In this document: piece by piece, positions 9,030 through 19,495 of the stretch | Numbering within the stretch: position 1 is the first letter of the stretch | Layout of the letters: every line of letters begins with the position of its first letter | The notes under the pieces: model-generated | The model's database searches: none | What the model was told of the DNA's origin: nothing | What the model saw: the letters and a program-made list of their open reading frames with translations, nothing else | Assembly: GCA_003331265.1 (NCBI GenBank) | Contig: QOPV01000008.1 | Span: 1 to 41,321 of the forward strand | Direction of reading: 5' to 3' | DNA: 41,321 bases | Source: Cryomorphaceae bacterium | GTDB lineage: Bacteria > Bacteroidota > Bacteroidia > Flavobacteriales > Flavobacteriaceae | Position numbers and translations under genes: made by a program

Positions 9030-9037
9030 TATGTTTG
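9030..9037 (+). promoter_or_regulatory. Bacteroidetes-type -7 box for the channel-like gene
   Basis: TATGTTTG matches TAnnTTTG exactly and ends 11 bases before the ATG at 9049. A transcript starting about six bases downstream would exclude the in-frame ATG at 9031, which lies inside the box. No clear -33 TTG is present. Confidence 0.5.
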
Positions 9038-9048
9038 TAATTATAATA

Positions 9049-10338
9049 ATGAAAAGTTTTAATAGTCACATAAAAAATTTATTAGTAGTCTTATTTTGCT
9101 TGTTTCTTTCAATAAATGATAATTATGCACAAAATGATGATATCCAAATAAAAAAGGATTCTATCACAAAATCAGATCAAAAACCTTTAAGATATTATCA
9201 AAGATTTGGCCCACCATATTACCCTGATATTAATCTTACTGATAAAGACTCATTAGAATGGCCATTGGAATTTGAGATCGCTTTAACCTTTAAAGACATT
9301 AAAGATTTAGATGTTAAAAACAATAGTTTTATTGCAGATTATATTTTTGAAATTTATTCAGATTATGATTTAGAATACACAACTGAAAATGGGGAAGTTC
9401 TAGAATATTTTCATCACCCTGATTGGATTCAAGCATTTTTAAAAATTACAGAAGAAACACAAATTGACGGCCCCTATTATAGCTTTAGAAGTGTTCCATC
9501 TAAAGTTTCAGAGCAAATGTTAGAAGATTTAATTGCAGCTGAAAGAATAACACCTGGTGATTTTGAGAATTACTTAACAAATGATGAAATATCTTTTTAT
9601 GACAAAAAATTTTCTAAAAGTTCAGTTGCTATTGTCAATGAATTTGATCATAATTGGGACTTAAGTGATTATCCTTTTGACACTCAAAAACTATTATTTG
9701 AATTTCAGACTACTTACGACACATCAGTGGTAGTGCTTAATCCAAGCACTAAATTTATCAGTTCATTTGAAAAAAAGATGAGAAACTTAACAGCTGGTTA
9801 CCAAATTAGAGATGTTACATACCGAAGTGAATACAAATCTGTTCCCTCAGATGTGATTAGAATCACCCCTACTCTAGCAAGACCGCAAGTAACACAATCT
9901 CTTATAGTCGAATTAAATGTTGAAAGAAACGGTTTAGTATTGTTTTTTAAAATATTTACTGGAGGAATACTTTCTTATTTTATTTCTTGTATGGTATTTT
10001 TAATTCCCTTAAAAGAACTTGAATCAAGAATTAATTTGGCAGTAGGTGGAATTTTTGGCGCCATAGGAAGTAGCGCTTTTGTGTATGAGGTACTTCCTGT
10101 TGTAAATGTATTTAATAAGGCAGATGCTATAAATAACTTAATAATTGGAATGGTTGTTTTCAATATCTTGATATTGCTTCTTCAGCAAGGGACTTTTAAA
10201 AGAGTTAATCTTGATGGAAAATATATGTACCAAAATGTAGAAGTTAAATATTTTAAACGCCTTCAAGACAGCGAGTTTGCATTCTTTTATTCTATTTTTG
10301 CATTCTTTGTGATTCTATTAGCCATATTATTATGGTAA
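9049..10338 (+). CDS. Pentameric ligand-gated ion channel (Cys-loop family)-like membrane protein
   Basis: 429 residues from the ATG at 9049, beginning with a signal peptide (hydrophobic LLVVLFCLFLS, probable cleavage after NYA). A beta-rich extracellular region of about 270 residues contains WDLSDYPFDTQ (about 203-213), which matches the pro-loop (F/Y)PFDxQ of pentameric ligand-gated channels. Four membrane helices follow at about 296-321, 328-352, 360-380 and 410-429. The second segment reads ESRINLAVGG...EVLP, and its E-R-x-x-L start and closing Leu-Pro match the pore-lining M2 and M2-M3 turn of the family. Known bacterial relatives include GLIC and ELIC. Ligand and ion selectivity cannot be read. 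An in-frame ATG at 9031 is less likely because it lies inside the putative -7 box. Confidence 0.85.
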   Translation: MKSFNSHIKNLLVVLFCLFLSINDNYAQNDDIQIKKDSITKSDQKPLRYYQRFGPPYYPDINLTDKDSLEWPLEFEIALTFKDIKDLDVKNNSFIADYIFEIYSDYDLEYTTENGEVLEYFHHPDWIQAFLKITEETQIDGPYYSFRSVPSKVSEQMLEDLIAAERITPGDFENYLTNDEISFYDKKFSKSSVAIVNEFDHNWDLSDYPFDTQKLLFEFQTTYDTSVVVLNPSTKFISSFEKKMRNLTAGYQIRDVTYRSEYKSVPSDVIRITPTLARPQVTQSLIVELNVERNGLVLFFKIFTGGILSYFISCMVFLIPLKELESRINLAVGGIFGAIGSSAFVYEVLPVVNVFNKADAINNLIIGMVVFNILILLLQQGTFKRVNLDGKYMYQNVEVKYFKRLQDSEFAFFYSIFAFFVILLAILLW

Positions 10339-10640
10339 AAAACTATTTATTTTTTCTAAAATAATTGAAAAATAAACATACTTTAAAGAATGTAATACCT
10401 ATATTGTAAACAAATTAATATCCAACAAAAAATTAAAGTATTAGGAAATAATTTAATCTACTTTATTTTCCAAATAGTAAAATTTACATACAAAAACCGT
10501 TTATAATTATTGTTGTTAAATTTTAATAGTTTCTTTATTTCCTAACACTTTATTTAGATAAACCATTAATATACAAACTTTTAAGTTTTTTAAAAATATT
10601 GAAAAGTATTTTTTAGCAATTGGATTTGTTTGATTAAATT
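10339..10640. other. Long intergenic stretch between the channel-like gene and the arginine leader
   Basis: About 300 very AT-rich bases without a credible ORF, tRNA or recognisable RNA family. The one structured element I see is the spaced inverted repeat at 10434-10552. The stretch probably holds the end of the channel transcript and upstream control sequences of the arginine operon. No strong intrinsic terminator is visible after 10338. Confidence 0.6.
10434..10552. repeat. Imperfect 18-bp inverted repeat, 83-base spacer
   Basis: The left arm TAAAGTATTAGGAAATAA (10434-10451) and the right arm TTATTTCCTAACACTTTA (10535-10552) are reverse complements at 17 of 18 positions. No target-site duplication flanks the arms and the spacer has no coding sequence, so a miniature transposon is possible but unsupported. 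The pair could equally be two oppositely oriented operator sites upstream of the arginine operon, or a long-range hairpin. Confidence 0.6.
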
Positions 10641-10659
10641 TTTTTTTATAATATTTGTA
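10641..10659 (+). promoter_or_regulatory. Promoter-like element shared with the his leader
   Basis: TTTTTTTATAATATTTGTA here is identical over 19 bases to the minus-strand sequence at 26584-26602 in front of the his leader. Its core TAATATTTG differs from the TAnnTTTG -7 consensus only by one extra spacer base. The element ends at the first ATG of the arg leader ORF, so a transcript from it would have almost no 5' leader. A weaker alternative, TGGATTTG at 10621-10628, would leave a leader of about 25 bases. Confidence 0.5.
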
Positions 10660-10745
10660 TGATGAATTTTTTAAATAGATCTTTTATTATTTCTTCAAAG
10701 CCCGCCCCTCGTCGCGCCCGCCCACTTGGGTATCTTTCTATTTAA
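10659..10745 (+). CDS. Putative arginine-operon leader peptide, 28 residues (Arg/Pro-rich)
   Basis: The ORF ATG-ATG...TAA encodes MMNFLNRSFIISS followed by KPAPRRARPLGYLSI. Codons 15-22 are CCC GCC CCT CGT CGC GCC CGC CCA, a GC-rich island in otherwise AT-rich DNA. Three CGN arginine codons within four positions (10710-10721) contrast with neighbouring genes, which write arginine mostly as AGA. The C-rich island has no G-rich partner nearby to make a stem, which argues that it is selected as coding sequence. It sits 61 bases upstream of the first gene of the arginine operon. By analogy with the his leader in this window I infer attenuation or nascent-peptide control by arginine supply. If the first ATG is too close to the promoter, the second (10662) may be used. 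Confidence 0.68.
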   Translation: MMNFLNRSFIISSKPAPRRARPLGYLSI

Positions 10746-10767
10746 GAAACTAGGTGAGTCCAGTTTC
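10746..10767 (+). promoter_or_regulatory. Hairpin directly after the arg leader stop codon
   Basis: GAAACT (10746-10751) pairs with AGTTTC (10762-10767). Inside it GG (10753-10754) pairs with CC (10760-10761), leaving a bulged A and the loop TGAGT. The 5' arm could alternatively pair through AGAAA (10745-10749) with TTTCT (10735-10739) at the end of the leader ORF. The two structures are mutually exclusive, as in attenuators. No T run follows directly; eight Ts occur only at 10792-10799, so it is not a clear intrinsic terminator. Confidence 0.45.
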
Positions 10768-10806: not shown

Positions 10807-11334
10807 GTGGAAATTCTTATTGCTTCTTTAAAGCACATTAAATATTGTAATGTCATTTCTCAAAATATAGCATCATCTGCTAAAGTTAGAGGAACTGGTA
10901 TTGCATTGAGATCACCCGAGTATATTCAAACTAAAATTGAAAACAATAATGCTGTAATTGCAATAGAAAATAATGAGTTTGCGGGATTCTGTTACATAGA
11001 AATATGGGGACATGGAAAATATGTTGCTCATTCAGGTCTAATAGTCTCTCCAAAATTTAGAGGAAAAGGATTGGCAAAAAAAATAAAAACATTAACATTT
11101 AATCATTCAAAAAATAAATATCCAAATGCTAAAATATTTGGAATAACAACTGGGCTGCCCGTTATGAAAATAAATTATGAATTAGGCTACAAACCTGTTA
11201 CATTTTCTGAGCTGACTGATGACGAAGCTTTCTGGAAAGGATGCTCTACATGTAAAAATTATGATGTGCTTAATAGAACTAGAAGAGAAATGTGTCTTTG
11301 TACAGGAATGCTTTATGACCCAAATAAAAATTAA
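10807..11334 (+). CDS. GNAT-family acyltransferase heading the arginine operon (candidate glutamate N-acyltransferase)
   Basis: 175 residues from a GTG start (MEILIASLKH), two bases before argG. The GNAT acyl-CoA-binding motif is SPKFRGKGLAKK (about 81-92), preceded by the beta-4 strand HSGLIV. The protein ends with an unusual cysteine group, CxxC (Cys146, Cys149) and CxC (Cys163, Cys165), which may bind a metal. As the first gene of an otherwise complete arginine operon that lacks argA and argJ, it is the best candidate for acylating glutamate at the first step. Given the transcarbamylase residue 90, the donor could be succinyl-CoA rather than acetyl-CoA. Family firm; substrate inferred. Confidence 0.82.
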   Translation: MEILIASLKHIKYCNVISQNIASSAKVRGTGIALRSPEYIQTKIENNNAVIAIENNEFAGFCYIEIWGHGKYVAHSGLIVSPKFRGKGLAKKIKTLTFNHSKNKYPNAKIFGITTGLPVMKINYELGYKPVTFSELTDDEAFWKGCSTCKNYDVLNRTRREMCLCTGMLYDPNKN

Positions 11335-11336
11335 AT

Positions 11337-12521
11337 ATGAAAAAAATAGTATTAGCCTATAGCGGAGGATTAGACACCTCATATTGTTTAAAAAAACTGT
11401 CTCAAGAAAAAAACGAAGTTCACGCAGTATGTATTAATACTGGTGGATTTACAAAAACTCAAATAAAATCAATTAAAGAAAAAGCAATTAAACTTGGTGC
11501 TTTCAAATTTGACTTAATTGATGCTGTTGAGTTTTATTACAATAACATAATCAAGTATTTGATTTACGGTAATGTGCTTAGAGGCAATACCTACCCCCTC
11601 TCTGTAAGTGCTGAAAGAACAGTTCAAGCTATTGAAATAATTAATTATGCTAAAAAAAATAACGCTACTCATATCGCTCACGGCAGTACAGGTGCTGGAA
11701 ATGATCAAGTCAGGTTCGATATGCTGTTTCAAATCATAGCACCTGAAATAGAAATTATAACTCCAATAAGAGATAATAGCTTAACCAGAGAAGATGAAAC
11801 AAAATTTTTACAAAATCATGGAGTAAATATTGAATGGGAAAAAGCAAAATACTCAATTAATAAAGGTTTATGGGGAACTAGTGTTGGTGGAGATGAAACT
11901 TTAACATCAAACAAAAAATTGCCAAACAACTCCTTCCCAAGTCAACTAAAATCTAATCAATCTGAGGAATTGATTTTATCGTTTAAAAATGGAGAAATTT
12001 CTGGATTTAATGGGAAAAACTATGACCCTGTAACCTCTATAGAACTGATTTCTGAAAAATGTAATAACTATTGCATTGGAAGAGATATTCACGTTGGTGA
12101 TACTATAATAGGAATAAAAGGAAGAGTAGGCTTTGAAGCAGGTGGACCAATTGTAATTTTAAAAGCCCATCACCTACTAGAAAAACATACTTTGACTAAA
12201 TGGCAACAGTATCAAAAAGAACAAATGTCTAATTTTTTTGGTATGCATCTACATGAAGGACATTATTTAGATCCAGTAATGCGAGATATTGAAGCTTTTT
12301 TAGAAAGTAGTCAGAAAAACGTTAGCGGAGAAGTTTATGTAACTCTTCAACCCTACAGATTTGAACTAAACGGAATTAAATCAGAAAATGATTTAATGAA
12401 TAATGGGTTTGGATCTTATGGCGAATTAAATAAGAAATGGACAGCTCAGGATGCTAAAGGCTTCATTAAAATCATGTCTAATCAAAATAAAATTTACCAT
12501 AATGTCAATAAATCAAAGTAA
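11337..12521 (+). CDS. argG: Argininosuccinate synthase
   Basis: 394 residues. It joins citrulline and aspartate with ATP to form argininosuccinate, the penultimate step of arginine synthesis. The N-type ATP pyrophosphatase P-loop AYSGGLDTSYCL is at residues 7-18. HGSTGAGNDQVRFD and the GLWGTSVGGDE segment are also characteristic. Its 3' end overlaps the start of argC by 20 bases, and it follows the GNAT gene after two bases, so expression is tightly coupled. Confidence 0.96.
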   Translation: MKKIVLAYSGGLDTSYCLKKLSQEKNEVHAVCINTGGFTKTQIKSIKEKAIKLGAFKFDLIDAVEFYYNNIIKYLIYGNVLRGNTYPLSVSAERTVQAIEIINYAKKNNATHIAHGSTGAGNDQVRFDMLFQIIAPEIEIITPIRDNSLTREDETKFLQNHGVNIEWEKAKYSINKGLWGTSVGGDETLTSNKKLPNNSFPSQLKSNQSEELILSFKNGEISGFNGKNYDPVTSIELISEKCNNYCIGRDIHVGDTIIGIKGRVGFEAGGPIVILKAHHLLEKHTLTKWQQYQKEQMSNFFGMHLHEGHYLDPVMRDIEAFLESSQKNVSGEVYVTLQPYRFELNGIKSENDLMNNGFGSYGELNKKWTAQDAKGFIKIMSNQNKIYHNVNKSK

Positions 12522-13500
12522 AATTAAAGTTGGAATCGTAGGTTCATCAGGTTATACAGGAGGTGAACTCATTAGATTACTTATCAATCATCCTAATTGT
12601 GAATTGATTTTTGCTAATAGTAAAATTTATGAAGGAAAGTATATTTCAGAAATTCACAAGGATTTGGAAGGAGAAATTGAAATGAAATTCTCAAAAGAAA
12701 TCAATAACGATATTGATGTTTTATTTCTATGCTTGGGTCATGGCAACTCAATTAATTTTTTAGAGAAAAATAAATTAAAAGAAGAAATTAAAATTATTGA
12801 TTTAAGTCAAGATTTTAGACTTGAAACATCATTTTCAAATTCAAAAAATAGTAGAAATTTTACTTATGGTTTACCCGAACTTCAAAAAGAAAAAATTATA
12901 AATTCAAAAAACATTGCTAATCCTGGATGTTTTGCTACAACTATTCAACTGGGACTACTACCATTAATTGAAAAGGATTTAATTGAAGGTGAAATACATA
13001 CAAGTGCAATAACGGGGAGTACAGGAGCTGGAATAAAACCAAGTCCGACCACACATTTTAGTTGGAGAAATAACAATATATCGTGGTATAAACCTTTTAC
13101 TCATCAACACTTAAATGAAATAAATTATTCATTTAATAATTTAAGTAACAAAAAAAATAAAATCAATTTTGTTCCATTAAGAGGAGATTTTACAAGAGGA
13201 ATTTTTTGTACCAGTTATTTTAAAACCTCTTCAAAATTATCAGATTTAGAAATACTTTTCAAAGAATATTATAAAAACGACCCTTTTACGTTTGTATCTG
13301 AAAATGAGATTCATTTAAAGCAAGTAATCAATACAAATAAATGTTTAATCCATTTACATCAAAATGATGATCTAATTATGGTTACCTCAACAATTGACAA
13401 TCTTATTAAAGGTGCTTCAGGACAAGCCATACAAAACATGAACCTAATGTTCAATATAAATGAAGAAGCAGGACTAAAATTAAAAAGCTCAATATTTTAA
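12502..13500 (+). CDS. argC: N-acyl-gamma-glutamyl-phosphate reductase
   Basis: 332 residues starting MSINQSKIKVGIVGSSGYTG. The NADP-binding loop GSSGYTGGEL is at about 14-23 and the catalytic cysteine is Cys143 in NPGCFATT. The enzyme reduces the acyl-glutamyl phosphate made by ArgB to the semialdehyde. A start 51 bases upstream is possible in frame but would add a non-conserved basic tail and deepen the overlap with argG to 71 bases; the ATG at 12502 gives the conserved N-terminus and a 20-base overlap. Confidence 0.95.
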   Translation: MSINQSKIKVGIVGSSGYTGGELIRLLINHPNCELIFANSKIYEGKYISEIHKDLEGEIEMKFSKEINNDIDVLFLCLGHGNSINFLEKNKLKEEIKIIDLSQDFRLETSFSNSKNSRNFTYGLPELQKEKIINSKNIANPGCFATTIQLGLLPLIEKDLIEGEIHTSAITGSTGAGIKPSPTTHFSWRNNNISWYKPFTHQHLNEINYSFNNLSNKKNKINFVPLRGDFTRGIFCTSYFKTSSKLSDLEILFKEYYKNDPFTFVSENEIHLKQVINTNKCLIHLHQNDDLIMVTSTIDNLIKGASGQAIQNMNLMFNINEEAGLKLKSSIF

Positions 13501-13504
13501 AATA

Positions 13505-14305
13505 ATGAAAATTTCAATTATAGGAACCGGAAATCTTGGAACAAGTATCGCTAAAGGCCTGCTTGCTAACGATATGTTTACTAGCCTTTATTTAACAAAG
13601 AAAAACATTTCTTCTCTTAATGAATGGCAAGATATTTCTAGCGTATCTGTAACCAATGATAATATTAAAGCAGTAAAAAACTCAGACTTTATTATTATTT
13701 CAGTTCAGCCGAATCAATTTGAAAAAATTGCAAATGAAATAAAAAGTTCGATAACCAAAAGACATACTATCATCTCAACAATAACTGGTCTTTCAATAAA
13801 TTCTATTGAAAGTTTAATTGGATATGAAATCAGTATTGTAAGAAGTATGCCCAACACTGCCGTCTCTGTTGGAAAGTCTGTAACATGTCTTTGTAGTAAT
13901 GAGATTGGAATAAAACAATTAAAAGTAGCTGAGGCAATTTTTAACAATTTAGGTGAAAGCTTTTTAATTGAGGAAAAAGACATGCAATCCGCTACTGTTT
14001 TATGTGCTAGTGGAATTGCTTTTTGGATGAGGTTAATTAGAGCTACTGCTCAAGGAGGAGTACAACTTGGCTTTGAATCAAAGCAAGCCTTAGAGATGTC
14101 TCTCAATACAGCGCTGGGGGCCATTAGTTTGTTAAAAACAAATAAATCACATCCCGAAGAAGAAATTGATAAGGTCACGACACCAAGCGGATGTACTATT
14201 AAAGGACTTATCGAAATGGAGAATCAAGGACTTAGCTCGGCACTAATAAGTGGATTAGAAGCTTCTTATCAAAAAATCAATAACATATCAAATCAAAAAA
14301 AATGA
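13505..14305 (+). CDS. proC: Pyrroline-5-carboxylate reductase
   Basis: 266 residues. The Rossmann loop GTGNLGTSIAKGL (7-19) binds NAD(P)H. The C-terminal dimer domain contains the family signature region TTPSGCTIKGLIEME. It reduces pyrroline-5-carboxylate to proline. Its place between argC and argD is a known Bacteroidetes arrangement. It ties proline formation to the arginine operon, since glutamate semialdehyde chemistry connects both. It overlaps argD by four bases. Confidence 0.94.
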   Translation: MKISIIGTGNLGTSIAKGLLANDMFTSLYLTKKNISSLNEWQDISSVSVTNDNIKAVKNSDFIIISVQPNQFEKIANEIKSSITKRHTIISTITGLSINSIESLIGYEISIVRSMPNTAVSVGKSVTCLCSNEIGIKQLKVAEAIFNNLGESFLIEEKDMQSATVLCASGIAFWMRLIRATAQGGVQLGFESKQALEMSLNTALGAISLLKTNKSHPEEEIDKVTTPSGCTIKGLIEMENQGLSSALISGLEASYQKINNISNQKK

Positions 14306-15429
14306 GTTTATTTAAAGTCTATCCATTATATGAAATGACACCCTCGCACGCTAAAGGATGTTATGTGTTTGATAAAAAAGGAAATAAATTTTTGGACTTG
14401 TATGGCGGACACGCTGTAATTTCAATTGGACATAGTCATCCAAATTATGTGAGTAGCTTATCTAATCAGTTAAATAAAATTGGCTTCTATTCAAATTATA
14501 TTATTAATGATTTGCAAGAGCAAGTTGCCAAAAAACTTATTGATCAATCAAATTGCGAAGATTATGAATTATTCATGTGCAGCTCAGGTGCGGAAGCAAA
14601 TGAAAATGCTCTTCAAATCGCTTCATTTCATAACAACAAATCAAGAATAATTGCATTTAAAAATTCTTTTCATGGAAGAAGTAATGCTGCTTTGAGCGCA
14701 ACAGATAATCAAAACATAAAAACAAAATTAAATACTAAAATTGATGTTACTTTTTTAAAGTTTAATGATAAAGAGTCATTAATAAAAGAAGTATCCAAAA
14801 GTGATGTTAGTGCTATAATATTTGAATCAATTCAAGGAGTTGGAGGACTGGACGAGCCAGATACTGAGTTTGTAAAGTTTCTAAGAGAAACTTGTGACAA
14901 GTATAATATTTGTTTAATTGCTGATGAAGTTCAATCTGGTTTTGGAAGAACAGGAGATTTTTTTGCGTTTCAAAAACACGATATAAAACCTGATATTATT
15001 CCAATGGCCAAAGGAATGGGAAATGGATTTCCTGTTGGCGGAGTATTAATTAATAAAAAAATAAAAGCAAAATTCGGAATGCTTGGAACTACGTTTGGAG
15101 GAAATCATTTAGCATGTTCAGCAGTTTTATCAGTTCTTGATACCATTAAGAAAGAAAATCTACTAAAAAACAGTAAAAACCAAGAGGAATATTTTAAAAA
15201 TAAATTATCTAAAATAAAGTCTATAAAAAAAATAAAAGGTCGAGGTTTAATGTTAGGACTAGAATTTGATTTCGATGCGAAAGAACTTAGAAAAAACCTA
15301 ATCTTTAAACACAATATTTTTACAGGAGGAAGTTCCAATAAAAAATTACTAAGAATTTTACCCCCTTTAAATATAACTGAACACCATATTGACATGTTGT
15401 ATAATGCTCTAACAATTGAATTAGAATGA
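14302..15429 (+). CDS. argD: N-acylornithine aminotransferase
   Basis: 375 residues, a class-III PLP-dependent aminotransferase. Markers are the YGGHAVISIGHSHP segment near residue 40, SSGAEANE for phosphate binding, the ADEVQSGFGRTG loop with the PLP-ring aspartate, and the Schiff-base lysine in PMAKGMGNG. It converts the acyl-glutamate semialdehyde into N-acylornithine. Start and stop overlap proC and argF' by four bases each, consistent with translational coupling along the operon. Confidence 0.95.
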   Translation: MSLFKVYPLYEMTPSHAKGCYVFDKKGNKFLDLYGGHAVISIGHSHPNYVSSLSNQLNKIGFYSNYIINDLQEQVAKKLIDQSNCEDYELFMCSSGAEANENALQIASFHNNKSRIIAFKNSFHGRSNAALSATDNQNIKTKLNTKIDVTFLKFNDKESLIKEVSKSDVSAIIFESIQGVGGLDEPDTEFVKFLRETCDKYNICLIADEVQSGFGRTGDFFAFQKHDIKPDIIPMAKGMGNGFPVGGVLINKKIKAKFGMLGTTFGGNHLACSAVLSVLDTIKKENLLKNSKNQEEYFKNKLSKIKSIKKIKGRGLMLGLEFDFDAKELRKNLIFKHNIFTGGSSNKKLLRILPPLNITEHHIDMLYNALTIELE

Positions 15430-16376
15430 AAAATTTTATAAATATTAATAACGTCAAGGATTATCAGGATCTTATTAAAGAATCTATAGAAATTAAAAAC
15501 AATCCTTATTCCCTTAAAAAAATAGGCGTTAATAAAACGCTAGGTCTAATTTTTTTTAATTCCAGTCTTAGAACTAGGCTGAGTACCATAAAAGCAGCTA
15601 AAATGCTTGGTTTGGAAACGATAGTTATGAATTTTAACAATGAAGGATGGGAGATTGAATTTGAAGAAAAGACAATTATGTCGAAAAACTCAGCTGAACA
15701 CGTTAAAGAAGCTGCTCAAGTTATATCTCAATATTGTGATATCATTGGAATTAGAGCCTTTGCTGAGTTAAAAAATAAAAATCATGATGAAAGTGAAAAA
15801 ATATTAAATTCATTCGTTAAGTACGGGTCAGTTCCAATTATAAATTTAGAAAGCTCTTGTGCTCATCCTCTTCAAGCATTAGCAGATGCTATTACAATTG
15901 AGGAGCATAAGAACAAACCTAATCCCAAAATAGTAATTTCATGGGCACCACACCCTAAATCACTTCCTCACGCAGTAGCAAATTCATTTATAAATATGGC
16001 CAGAATGAGTAATTATGACCTTGTTATCACAAACCCTATTGGGTATGATTTAAATCCAAAAGTAACAAAAGGAATAAATGTGATACATAATCAAGAGGAA
16101 GCTTTCAAAAATGCAGATTTTATATATGCTAAAAACTGGTCGAGTTACAATGATTATGGAAAAATCTTGATTAATGATAATAAATGGATGATAAATAAAA
16201 GAAAAATGGAAATAACTAATAATGCAAAATTTATGCATTGTCTCCCTGTTAGAAGAAATATAGTAGTCGATGATTCGGTTTTAGATTCAAATTATTCTTT
16301 AGTTATTAATCAAGCTAATAACAGAACGTATGCAGCTCAAACCATTTTAAAAAAAATAATATTAAATGAAGGATAA
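15426..16376 (+). CDS. argF': N-acylornithine carbamoyltransferase, probably N-succinylornithine type
   Basis: 316 residues. The carbamoyl-phosphate motif is the Bacteroidetes form FFNSSLRTRLST (43-54), and HCLPVRRN near 258-265 matches the Bacteroides fragilis succinylornithine transcarbamylase very closely. The specificity residue equivalent to Pro90 of that enzyme and Glu92 of Xanthomonas acetylornithine transcarbamylase is Ala90 here (NSAEHV). As I recall, replacing Glu92 by small residues including alanine shifts the Xanthomonas enzyme to succinylornithine. I therefore infer a succinyl substrate, with the acetyl form not excluded. Confidence 0.92.
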   Translation: MKNFININNVKDYQDLIKESIEIKNNPYSLKKIGVNKTLGLIFFNSSLRTRLSTIKAAKMLGLETIVMNFNNEGWEIEFEEKTIMSKNSAEHVKEAAQVISQYCDIIGIRAFAELKNKNHDESEKILNSFVKYGSVPIINLESSCAHPLQALADAITIEEHKNKPNPKIVISWAPHPKSLPHAVANSFINMARMSNYDLVITNPIGYDLNPKVTKGINVIHNQEEAFKNADFIYAKNWSSYNDYGKILINDNKWMINKRKMEITNNAKFMHCLPVRRNIVVDDSVLDSNYSLVINQANNRTYAAQTILKKIILNEG

Positions 16377-17145
16377 ATTAACTATAATCAAAGTCGGTGG
16401 AGCAGTTTTAAACGATAATAAGATTTTCAAAACATTCTTAAATAATTTTTCAAAAATTAAAGAAAAAAAAATATTAGTTCATGGTGGCGGAATAATAGCA
16501 TCAAACTATTTGGTTCGATTAGGAATTCCTCCCAAATTTATAAAAGGAAGAAGAATTACAGATGAAAAAACCTTAGACGTTGCTATTATGACTTATGCTG
16601 GTTTGATAAATAAAAAAATTGTAGCTCAGCTTCAAAAATCAAACTGTAATTCAATCGGTCTTTCTGGAGCAGATTGTAATTTAATTAAATCTAAAAAAAG
16701 AGAAATAAAGGATATTGATTTTGGTCTTGTTGGTGATATTACTCAAATTAATGTCAATTTTATAAATAATTTAATAAAAACAAATATTCATCCTGTTATT
16801 TGCTCACTATCGCACGACGGAAATGGTCAATTATTAAATACCAATGCAGATACAATTGCTTCAAAATTTGCAATAGAATTATCATCAATTTATGATGTTA
16901 CATTAAAATTTTGCTTTGATAAAGGAGGAGTTTTAACTAATCAAAACGACTCCTCCACAATTATTAGTTCTATAAATATAAATGACTATGAAAGTTTGAT
17001 AAATCAAAACATCATAACTGATGGAATGATTCCAAAAATCGAGAATTGTTTTAATGCCCTTAAAAAAGGAGTTAAAAATATTTTAATGGGAGACCATGAC
17101 ATAATAAAAAATGAAAAAGACTGTACTAAACTAACTCTTAACTAA
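16366..17145 (+). CDS. argB: N-acylglutamate kinase
   Basis: 259 residues, amino-acid-kinase fold. The N-terminal phosphate loop reads KVGGAVLNDN. LVHGGG is at about 39-44, and the substrate loop RRITDEKTLDV follows. The pathway's second step phosphorylates N-acylglutamate. In organisms using this kinase it is often the target of arginine feedback inhibition, but the N-terminal extension seen in arginine-inhibited hexameric forms is missing here. It overlaps argF' by 11 bases and its stop codon shares one base with the argE start. Confidence 0.94.
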   Translation: MKDKLTIIKVGGAVLNDNKIFKTFLNNFSKIKEKKILVHGGGIIASNYLVRLGIPPKFIKGRRITDEKTLDVAIMTYAGLINKKIVAQLQKSNCNSIGLSGADCNLIKSKKREIKDIDFGLVGDITQINVNFINNLIKTNIHPVICSLSHDGNGQLLNTNADTIASKFAIELSSIYDVTLKFCFDKGGVLTNQNDSSTIISSININDYESLINQNIITDGMIPKIENCFNALKKGVKNILMGDHDIIKNEKDCTKLTLN

Positions 17146-18200
17146 TGGAAAAAATAATTTCTGAATCAATCGAATTACTAAAAGATTTAATTTCTATTGA
17201 GTCATTTTCTTTTAATGAAGATAAAAGTGCTGGTAGAATTGAAAAATGGTTTTTCGATCACAACATTTCTTGCAAGAGAATAAAAAACAATGTCTATTCT
17301 AAAAATGAATTTTTCGATATTAAAAAACCTACAATCCTATTAAATTCTCATCACGATACAGTGAAACCTAATAAAGGATACACTAAAAACCCCTTTTCAA
17401 GTATCATTGAAAAAGGAAAATTATTTGGCCTTGGAAGTAACGATGCAGGTGGAGCATTAGTTTCATTAATTGGAGTATTTACTTATCTATACAACAAAAA
17501 AAATTTAAAATATAATTTCATATTGCTAGCTTCTGCTGAAGAGGAATGTTCAGGGGATAATGGGATAAGCTCAATAATTCCTGTTCTACCAAAAATAAAT
17601 TTTGGCATTATTGGTGAACCTACTCTAATGAAAATGGCTGTAGCTGAAAAAGGACTTGTAGTTTTGGATTTACATGTGAAAGGAACTGCAAGTCATGCTG
17701 CCCATCCAAATAACGATAATCCTATACTTAAATCAATACCTGTGTTAAATTGGATAAAAAATCTAAACTTTAATAGACGATCAGATTTTCTTGGAGATAC
17801 AAAAGCTACAATAACTCAAATAAGTTCGGGTAATCAGCATAACGTAGTTCCCTCAGAGCTAAATATAGTTCTTGATGTTAGGGTGAATGATAGGTATACT
17901 AATAAAGAGATTTACGAAATACTAAAAAAAGATGCTCCTTGTAAAATTAAGCCAAGATCATTAAATTTAAATTCTTCGTCAATTGATTTAGAGCATCCAA
18001 TAGTTAAAGGAGCAGATAGTATTCAAATTGAAAAATATGGTTCTCCGACTCTATCAGATCAGTCTAAGATTTCATTTCCTTCAATAAAAATTGGTCCAGG
18101 AGATTCCAAAAGATCTCATACTGCTGATGAATTTATTTATATAAATGAAATTAAAAATGCCATTCCCATTTATATAAAACTATTAAATACAATAATTTAA
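17145..18200 (+). CDS. argE: N-acylornithine/N-acylcitrulline deacylase, M20 peptidase family
   Basis: 351 residues, zinc-dependent M20 family. The first metal-site motif is NSHHDTVKP, followed by GSNDAGGALVS with the bridging aspartate and AEEECSGDNG carrying the catalytic glutamate pair. The dimerisation lid is the HVKGTASHAAHP segment. In the transcarbamylase-type pathway the acyl group is removed from acyl-citrulline, so this protein probably acts after ArgF' and before ArgG. It is 11 bases upstream of argH. Confidence 0.93.
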   Translation: MEKIISESIELLKDLISIESFSFNEDKSAGRIEKWFFDHNISCKRIKNNVYSKNEFFDIKKPTILLNSHHDTVKPNKGYTKNPFSSIIEKGKLFGLGSNDAGGALVSLIGVFTYLYNKKNLKYNFILLASAEEECSGDNGISSIIPVLPKINFGIIGEPTLMKMAVAEKGLVVLDLHVKGTASHAAHPNNDNPILKSIPVLNWIKNLNFNRRSDFLGDTKATITQISSGNQHNVVPSELNIVLDVRVNDRYTNKEIYEILKKDAPCKIKPRSLNLNSSSIDLEHPIVKGADSIQIEKYGSPTLSDQSKISFPSIKIGPGDSKRSHTADEFIYINEIKNAIPIYIKLLNTII

Positions 18201-18211
18201 AAATTACAATT

Positions 18212-19495
18212 ATGAAACTTTGGAATAAAAATGACCTTCTTAACAAAAAAATTGAAAAATTTACTGTTGGCAACGATAGAATATATGATTTGTACATAGC
18301 AAAATATGATATTAAGGCATCTATTGTACATGCAAAAATGTTAAATAAGTCGAAAATTATTTCAAACAATGAAATGAATTTGATAGTTAATGAGTTAAAT
18401 GTCTTAAATACTCAAATATTAAAAGATGATTTTATTATTGAAGAAAAATTTGAGGATATTCATTCAAAAATTGAATTTATATTAACAAAAAAATTGGGAG
18501 ATGTCGGAAAGAAAATTCACACTGGAAGATCAAGAAATGACCAGGTGCTTGTTGCAACTCAACTTTATTTAAAAGATCAAATAAAAGAAATTAAAGATAG
18601 TATCAAAGAATTATTTGAGACATTAATTGATTTAGCCGAGAAGAACAAGAATCATTTATTACCTGGCTATACTCACCTACAAGTAGCTATGCCATCTTCA
18701 TTTGGTCTTTGGTTTTCCTCATATGCTGAATGTTTAATAGATGATATTTTATACTTGAACACTGCCTATAAAATTAATAATCAAAACCCTTTAGGAAGTG
18801 CTGCTGGCTATGGAAGTTCATTTAAAATTGATAGAAATTACACGACAAAAGAATTAGAATTTGAGACATTAAAATTCAATGTAGTTGCTGCACAAATGAA
18901 CAGAGGGAAAATCGAAAAATCTGTTGCAATAGCGATTTCGCAAATAGCAAATACATTATCAAAATTTTCATCTGATATATGTTTTTATATGACTCAAGAA
19001 TTAAATTTCATTTCTTTTCCAGATGAATTAACGACAGGCTCAAGTATTATGCCTCACAAAAAAAATCCTGATGTATTTGAATTAATAAGAGGAAAATGTA
19101 ATGCAATTCAATCTATCACAAACGAATTGAATCTTATTACTACAAACCTTACTAGTGGCTATCATAGAGACATGCAACTTTTAAAAGAAAAAATAATAGA
19201 GGGCATTAATGAAATAAAAAAATGTATTGAATTAACTAGTTATTCAATTAAGAAAATTAAGATAAGAAAAAATATTTTAGATGATAAAAAATATGAGTAC
19301 TCCTTTACAGTAGAAAATCTTAATAAATTAGTAAATAGTGGTTTATCATTTAGAGATGCCTATATAAAAATATCAGAATCGATAAAAAAAGGTAATTACA
19401 TTCCAGAAAAAAATATAGAGCACAATCTTATTGGAAGTATAAATAATTTATGTTTAGAAGAAATAAGAGCTAAGATGAAAAATTACTTTAATTAA
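18212..19495 (+). CDS. argH: Argininosuccinate lyase
   Basis: 427 residues of the fumarase/aspartase superfamily. HTGRSRNDQV is near residue 104, and the signature loop GSSIMPHKKNPD holds the catalytic serine. It splits argininosuccinate into arginine and fumarate, the last step. It ends the arginine operon and lies tail-to-tail with hisIE with a single base between the two stop codons, so no dedicated terminator fits between the operons. Confidence 0.96.
   Translation: MKLWNKNDLLNKKIEKFTVGNDRIYDLYIAKYDIKASIVHAKMLNKSKIISNNEMNLIVNELNVLNTQILKDDFIIEEKFEDIHSKIEFILTKKLGDVGKKIHTGRSRNDQVLVATQLYLKDQIKEIKDSIKELFETLIDLAEKNKNHLLPGYTHLQVAMPSSFGLWFSSYAECLIDDILYLNTAYKINNQNPLGSAAGYGSSFKIDRNYTTKELEFETLKFNVVAAQMNRGKIEKSVAIAISQIANTLSKFSSDICFYMTQELNFISFPDELTTGSSIMPHKKNPDVFELIRGKCNAIQSITNELNLITTNLTSGYHRDMQLLKEKIIEGINEIKKCIELTSYSIKKIKIRKNILDDKKYEYSFTVENLNKLVNSGLSFRDAYIKISESIKKGNYIPEKNIEHNLIGSINNLCLEEIRAKMKNYFN

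Follow-up and report, generated by a model that had tools for sequence, protein, structure and literature searches.

Attenuators of the his and trp type combine a short ORF close to the promoter, codons for the end product of the operon, and overlapping hairpins. In Salmonella, the speF leader orf34 has consecutive Arg codons and a hairpin after the stop codon, and its authors report pausing at the Arg codons and Rho-dependent termination, with no intrinsic terminator found (PMC6386406). In Staphylococcus aureus, rare Arg codons in the uORF rbfL are reported to sense arginine limitation, and stalling represses a biofilm regulator by covering the downstream ribosome binding site (PMC13009471). 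In Flavobacterium psychrophilum, strong clues have been presented that operons for amino-acid biosynthesis are preceded by attenuating leader peptides (PMC9723704). Leader-like small ORFs are also mentioned for Bacteroides (PMC7366714), and leader genes and uORF motifs have been treated in general, with no flavobacterial arginine leader in the main accounts (PMC4833913, PMC8632094). Among structured RNAs, Bacteroid-trp RNA (RF01692) is described as a likely cis-regulator, and the GUCCY-hairpin as a motif of Bacteroidetes and Proteobacteria (PMC2864571).

Here we describe an element upstream of the arginine operon in a stretch of 41,321 nucleotides from a Cryomorphaceae bacterium, referred to below as the window. 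The element has the features of his/trp-type attenuators listed above, which are also seen in a his leader of the same window, but one of its hairpins takes up the last control codons in an arm and often the stop codon in the loop. Like orf34, it has consecutive Arg codons, a hairpin after the stop codon and no intrinsic terminator found; it differs from orf34 in gene, peptide and RNA, and orf34 controls polyamine synthesis and also responds to ornithine (PMC6386406). With rbfL it would share the sensing of arginine limitation by rare Arg codons, but neither the target gene nor the reported mode of repression (PMC13009471). The leader candidates of F. psychrophilum are from the same family as the window, and the main text of that report names no arginine leader, RRP ending or AGGUGNGUCC hairpin, although its supplement may (PMC9723704). 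The GUCCY-hairpin, which has no Rfam number in the published table, probably differs, as GUCC in our second hairpin is followed mostly by A or G and not by Y (PMC2864571). No Rfam covariance match to Bacteroid-trp (RF01692), T-box or riboswitch models was found in the arginine leader, and a search of titles and abstracts found no description of this element. We consider it likely that the element is a ribosome-mediated arginine leader, that is, an attenuator-like cis-regulator of the arginine operon. The features of the locus are as follows.

10625..10632, + strand: candidate -33 element TTTGTTTG, as read against the Bacteroidetes consensus
10649..10657, + strand: candidate -7 promoter element of the Bacteroidetes type, TAATATTTG, ending 1 nt ahead of ATG 10659 and 4 nt ahead of ATG 10662
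10662..10745, + strand: putative arginine leader ORF, start ATG 10659 or likelier 10662, stop TAA 10743-10745, frame kept in congeners
10710..10721, + strand: putative control-codon cluster CGT CGC GCC CGC (Arg-Arg-Ala-Arg), from codon usage and frame-wise CGY count
10720..10731, + strand: hairpin H1, GCCC-ACTT-GGGT, 4 bp, alternative 5' arm GCCC 10716-10719, from alignment and folds
10746..10767, + strand: hairpin H2, GAAACT-A-GG-TGAGT-CC-AGTTTC, with covarying lower stem, bulged A and conserved AGGTGNGTCC top
10807..11334, + strand: first operon gene, GNAT acyltransferase with CxxC...CxC motif, from homologue search and Pfam domains
11337..12521, + strand: argG (argininosuccinate synthase), from Pfam domains
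12502..19495, + strand: remainder of the operon, argC-, proC-, argD-, argF-, argB-, argE- and argH-like, names inferred from Pfam domains

The Pfam domains downstream of the leader are, in order, GNAT, argininosuccinate synthase, semialdehyde dehydrogenase and P5C reductase, followed by class III aminotransferase, carbamoyltransferase, amino-acid kinase, M20 peptidase and lyase. The start of the argC-like gene (12502) was chosen by eye, the ORF listing giving 12451. The motif GCxTCKNYD...MCLCTGM is conserved in the GNAT protein (10807-11334), which has a basic tail in most of the 30 loci compared; we infer that this protein is possibly the acyl-glutamate synthase of the arginine pathway. Upstream of the leader, a membrane protein (window 9031-10338) had no Pfam match above the cut-off, and its layout, judged by eye, may resemble that of pentameric ligand-gated channels.

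The 28-codon ORF that the initial annotation had placed 61 bases ahead of the arginine operon is present as described (10659-10745, + strand, MMNFLNRSFIISSKPAPRRARPLGYLSI), the 61 bases separating its stop codon from the GTG (10807) of the first operon gene. Codons 15-22 indeed encode PAPRRARP with three CGN Arg codons (CGT 10710, CGC 10713 and CGC 10719), and Arg is otherwise mostly AGA, as had been claimed: the 311 Arg codons of 34 window ORFs comprise 249 AGA, 39 AGG, 12 CGA, 7 CGT and 4 CGC. Because CGY is so rare in these ORFs (11 of 311), the presence of three CGY among the four Arg codons of the leader is unlikely to be due to chance. A search of NCBIfam with the leader peptide gave no match, and there is no tRNA-Arg gene inside the window. 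When the window sequence was folded alone, the whole leader was unremarkable (z -1.51, 20 of 200 shuffles as good), and so was H1 (z -1.17, 26 of 200); H2 gave the sole notable folding score (z -3.38, 0 of 200). With a short ORF and so weak a whole-leader fold in one species, a chance ORF without function might be considered, and the case for a leader rests on comparison.

We searched 149 Flavobacteriaceae genomes with the first operon protein, found it in 98 (own genome included), and collected the upstream sequence of all 98 GNAT loci, first for the own locus and 29 relatives and then for 68 more. The leader core was found by pattern in 90 of the 98 loci, and 95 loci could be aligned over H1 and H2. 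The eight loci with no core by pattern were L009, L024, L050, L069, L070, L074, L087 and L102, of which L009, L024, L050, L087 and L102 nonetheless entered the 95-row alignment. L087 aligned poorly and has degenerate H1 and H2; L069, L070 and L074 are without the element next to GNAT, L074 retaining only an upstream leader. Recognisable or intact H1 and H2 are missing from these four loci (4/98: L069, L070, L074, L087). The ORF of L097 was mis-traced; it is among the 90 traced leaders and was left out of the frame count, which covers 89. The stem shuffles and the structure scan used 87 loci, the helix pairing 85, the spacing 79, and the terminator search 94. It appears from these sequences that an Arg-rich leader with hairpins precedes the arginine operon in most of the gene-carrying Flavobacteriaceae genera examined. 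With 95 of 98 loci alignable and the reading frame kept in 12 congeners, conservation already refutes a chance ORF, to which we assign a negligible probability. Among family genomes without GNAT, 20 of 51 were checked for argG (G004 and 19 others), and a full-length match was found in two, a third match being a weak 52-residue stretch. Thus, absence of GNAT mostly accompanies absence of arginine synthesis.

Conservation of the peptide frame in relatives had been posed as a test of the leader. In the genus of the window, 14 of 22 genomes have the GNAT gene (own included), and 12 of the 13 congeners could be aligned with the own locus, the thirteenth (L284) being unanchored at a contig start. 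The frame is kept in all 13 aligned sequences. All 13 have Arg-Pro, a Gly two codons further along and Ser-Ile-stop at the end, and the two Arg codons ahead of Arg-Pro are kept in 11 and 12 of 13. Within the genus, CGT and CGC are exchanged silently at two Arg codons. Between genera, the peptide ahead of the Arg cluster is not conserved, and what the leaders have in common is mainly that cluster and the Pro constrained by H1. CGY was counted by frame over the 48 nt that precede the last two Arg codons of 89 leaders: the leader frame has 164, and each of the two remaining frames has 31. The last two Arg codons of each leader belong to the H1 stem or adjoin it; with these set aside, CGY makes up 170 of the 231 Arg codons that are left, compared with 124 of 524 Arg codons in GNAT and argG of 30 loci. 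Thus, as expected of an amino-acid leader, codons for the product of the operon are enriched, and judged by its sequence signature the leader is probably a short translated ORF upstream of a biosynthetic operon. A different reading would be that the region is an untranslated arginine aptamer RNA whose ORF is a by-product of a GC-rich stem, which would fit a conserved RNA with a specific loop and no Rfam match (no match to Rfam covariance models in the window at the gathering score, and none at E up to 1 in the window, the own locus and four relatives). An aptamer is hard to reconcile with a CGY enrichment that is specific to one frame, with the synonymous CGT/CGC exchange, and with the occurrence of a second leader having a similar Arg-rich ending, and we consider it highly improbable.

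The initial annotation had stated that the C-rich island has no complementary G-rich stretch and had concluded that it was selected as codons rather than as a stem. Both statements were mistaken: GGGT at 10728-10731 can pair with either of two GCCC to form H1 (with 10720-10723 in two longer folds and with 10716-10719 in the shortest), and the island serves as both codons and stem. The form of H1 common in relatives is CGCCC-GTAA-GGGTG, whose loop contains the stop codon, and H1 holds the last Arg-Pro codons of the leader. Over the 13 pairs of H1 and H2 in 95 of the 98 loci, 90.0% of cells were paired compared with 83.3% after shuffling, and covariation was 0.259 compared with 0.141, neither value being reached in 500 shuffles, which ignore relatedness. 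Sliding the partners of H1 or H2 lowered both pairing and covariation. H2 is the most conserved part of the leader region. All five pairs of its lower stem change on both sides, and the lower stem has a mean of 6.2 bp, while the maximum in 1000 shuffles of the 3' arm was 4.93 (87 loci). H1 is weaker than H2, with the outermost pair missing in 32 of 94 rows and double changes in two of five pairs. A scan of 34-nt windows over the leader in 87 loci gave a clear structure signal only at H1, H2 and a third hairpin, H0, which sits in the middle of the ORF and, by eye, is not evident in the window or its genus. Of 79 loci examined, 76 had both patterns, and in all of these 18-22 nt separate the H1 end from GGTG in H2, whereas H2 lies anywhere from 45 to 104 nt from the gene; H1 and H2 therefore look like one unit. 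The conserved hairpins overlap or follow the control codons, again as in amino-acid leaders.

The ends of the leaders bear on the suggestion in the initial annotation that the nascent chain stalls on a motif like RAPP or RAGP. An arrest peptide of this kind would be a nascent chain ending in Arg-Arg-Pro that stalls the ribosome, either at Pro-stop in the manner of TnaC or in that of SecM, possibly with free arginine as the ligand, and codon identity would be secondary. The leaders of 74 of the 90 traced loci end in Arg-Pro-stop, and 70 of 90 in RRP-stop, an ending in favour of arrest, as RP-stop may resemble the end of TnaC. However, Pro-stop is missing in 15 of the 89 correctly traced leaders, the window's included, in which the frame runs on (often RPLG..) because the H1 loop has a sense codon where the stop would be; reading continues beyond RP in the window, in the aligned congeners and in L006. 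In L009, L024 and L050 (the latter two by eye), Leu or Thr follows the Arg pair instead of Pro, and L024 and L050 keep H1 with bases changed on both sides. The H1 stem could account for the Pro codons, CCN; in addition, CGY is the favoured choice for Arg, and the peptide before the Arg cluster varies between genera. Apart mainly from the Arg cluster and the H1-constrained Pro, we did not see the residues conserved at fixed places in the nascent chain, a stall site included, that an arrest peptide would have. Since neither the Pro nor the following stop is obligatory, while the Arg codons and H1 are kept, arrest is disfavoured, and we regard it as unlikely.

The top of H2 is GGTGNG[T/C]CC (GGUGNG[U/C]CC in RNA) in 87 of the 98 loci and different in seven (L008, L028, L042, L045, L073, L077, L102). 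The own genome has one other copy of AGGTGNGTCC, by eye in apparent coding sequence. With its covarying stem and sequence-specific top, H2 has the look of a protein-binding site, and the GNAT with its Cys motif and basic tail might bind there and repress its own operon. In four loci (L224, L225, L258 and L120) another acyltransferase replaces the first operon gene and the Arg leader stays. Three of these, L224, L225 and L258, keep the H2 stem without AGGUGNGUCC, as would be expected if GNAT recognised it, but L120 retains AGGUGUGUCC intact with the other acyltransferase, and L102 has GNAT without the H2 top. Autoregulation by GNAT is thus weakened and, in our judgement, highly improbable. Whatever reads it, the conserved top of H2 offers a direct handle for finding the read-out factor.

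Returning to the ribosome-mediated leader, we searched for the arginine repressor ArgR (PF01316) and found none in 18 genomes (own and 17 relatives); among controls it was found in 9 of 14, 8 of them over the cut-off. The arginine-sensing reading proposed in the initial annotation is well supported by the frame-specific CGY count, the frame kept in the genus, the placement before the operon and this result for ArgR. Throughout the family, the leader could account for the control of arginine synthesis in bacteria where no ArgR was found. The his operon provides a local comparison, for which the window has two features.

26568-26512, - strand: his leader peptide MKFNRNNHHHLNILKRVM, before hisG
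26489-26455, - strand: his intrinsic terminator, before hisG

A strong intrinsic terminator was found before hisG in all 18 genomes tested, and a His-rich leader ORF by a set criterion in 17 of the 18 (L299 fails). In contrast, no intrinsic terminator was found behind H2 of the arginine leader in 94 loci. H2 itself was ruled out as an intrinsic terminator, as it has no U-tract. Terminator-like arginine leaders numbered eight of 94, all consisting of H1 and the U-rich spacer, and with eight of 94 for arg compared with 18 of 18 for his, a classical intrinsic-terminator attenuator was rejected. As the arginine leader is without a his-type terminator, it is not merely a his leader of these genomes with the codons replaced; its read-out is not the textbook terminator, though the genomes tested have one for histidine. 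Because the spacer is U-rich, H1 could possibly act as a weak terminator or a pause hairpin.

We also looked for a helix that would be mutually exclusive with H1 or H2, and found none with covariation support in 85 loci. CGCC in the H1 arm and GGUG in the H2 loop are on average as complementary as any pair outside H2 itself; in 85 loci their mean complementarity was 10.28, compared with 10.43 for permuted pairs, and neither of the two varies. A long-range helix between AAATAGA at the leader start and TCTATTT in the H1-H2 spacer was seen in the window fold and in the genus. Over 87 loci it was slightly above permuted pairs (z 2.3, 0 of 60), but when the stretch behind H2 was tested in this way, z was 2.9 (0 of 60). 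The helix is AU-rich and, by eye, its core is broken in L280 and L282; we propose it tentatively. With no intrinsic terminator found behind H2 and no exclusive partner helix supported by covariation, the anatomy of a classical switch is therefore incomplete.

The start of the leader is probably the second ATG (10662), by comparison with the congeners and L006. Since TAATATTTG ends 1 nt before the first ATG and 4 nt before the second, the leader of the window may be nearly leaderless, if this candidate promoter spacing is correct. Among the 90 traced leaders, 25 have TAnn(n)TTTG at a distance of 0-40 nt upstream of an in-frame start, compared with 12 of 90 in the control, and in 16 of the 25 this distance is exactly 7 nt; with this pattern, 65 of 90 leaders had no -7 element within 40 nt of a start. 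Most transcripts of F. johnsoniae are reported to carry a leader, so that a near-leaderless ORF would not be typical of that species (PMC6847099). The initial annotation had passed over the hairpin at 10746-10767, TAATATTTG ahead of the ATG and the probable start at the second ATG.

We envisage that transcription starts at or beside the leader ATG, as the promoter spacing suggests, and that a ribosome would then load at once. When charged tRNA-Arg for CGY is short, the ribosome would park on the CGY codons and cover the 5' arm of H1, leaving H1 open. When arginine is ample, the ribosome would reach the stop codon and leave, and H1 would re-form. The state of H1 and H2 would decide expression of the operon, most likely with high expression at low arginine. 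Because most leaders have no more than a few codons between the control codons and the stop, stalling would alter the duration of ribosome occupancy more than its position. Our first guess for the read-out is Rho-dependent termination or pausing of RNA polymerase at H1 with the U-rich spacer, and our second is control of GNAT translation or of mRNA decay.

A pattern scan of public genomes for H1-H2 gave at least 119 stretches. Among the matches listed, 67 of 80 loci are flavobacterial or Bacteroidetes by title, and 64 of these 67 have GNAT 47-107 nt downstream on the same strand; of the remaining listed ones, L120 lies before argG but has a different acyltransferase as its first gene, and two are cut off ahead of the gene. 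Named records with the pattern include Maribacter arcticus, Zobellia uliginosa and Winogradskyella ludwigii. The other 13 of the 80 listed loci, from other or unassigned taxa, have neither GNAT nor argG. The covariance model R1 was built from alignment A2, which includes the row of the window, so that the match in the window is by construction; R1 searches over more than 40 genomes used stricter filters, and weak members may escape them. In the order, 42 of 395 genomes had an R1 match at E up to 1e-3, of which 36 belong to the family and six to other families (f5/f7), and in the class 13 of 395 had one, with three weak matches outside the family. The six f5/f7 matches and the three in the class had no GNAT or argG match by tblastn nearby and were taken as chance, as was, on inspection, the match in G194 within the family.

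In 40 of the 95 loci, including L013, L015, L017, L018, L020, L046 and L092, a second Arg-rich leader ORF lies upstream, 190-460 nt before GNAT, so that leader ORFs for one amino acid stand in series. The criterion was at least three CGY in the last 13 codons (L082, L094 and L097 left out); it gave none on the reverse strand, none in the next 240 nt upstream and at most two in 50 shuffles. The second leader often ends in RRR-stop or RRRF-stop. There is no second Arg-rich leader in the window. By eye, complementary AU-rich arms flank the second leader in L013, L017, L018, L020, L027 and L029. More tentatively, and on balance we doubt it, the element could represent a distinct class of leader without an intrinsic terminator, in which the last control codons are in the H1 arm with the stop often in the loop, and the signal goes on to the AGGUGNGUCC hairpin, a fixed distance away, which either is read by a trans factor or contacts the CGCC codon region; in many species, two such sensors would act in series, as in tandem riboswitches, without ArgR.

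In the genus g127 (L267-L275), possibly Flavobacterium, we found an unrelated arginine leader, MNKISLHITSLSRTNSP..SPEVR.LSL, with two CGG codons, and it appears that the control codon has switched. This leader is nearly identical in 9 of 12 loci, the 12 including one locus of another genus. By eye, each of the CGG codons lies in or beside a small hairpin.
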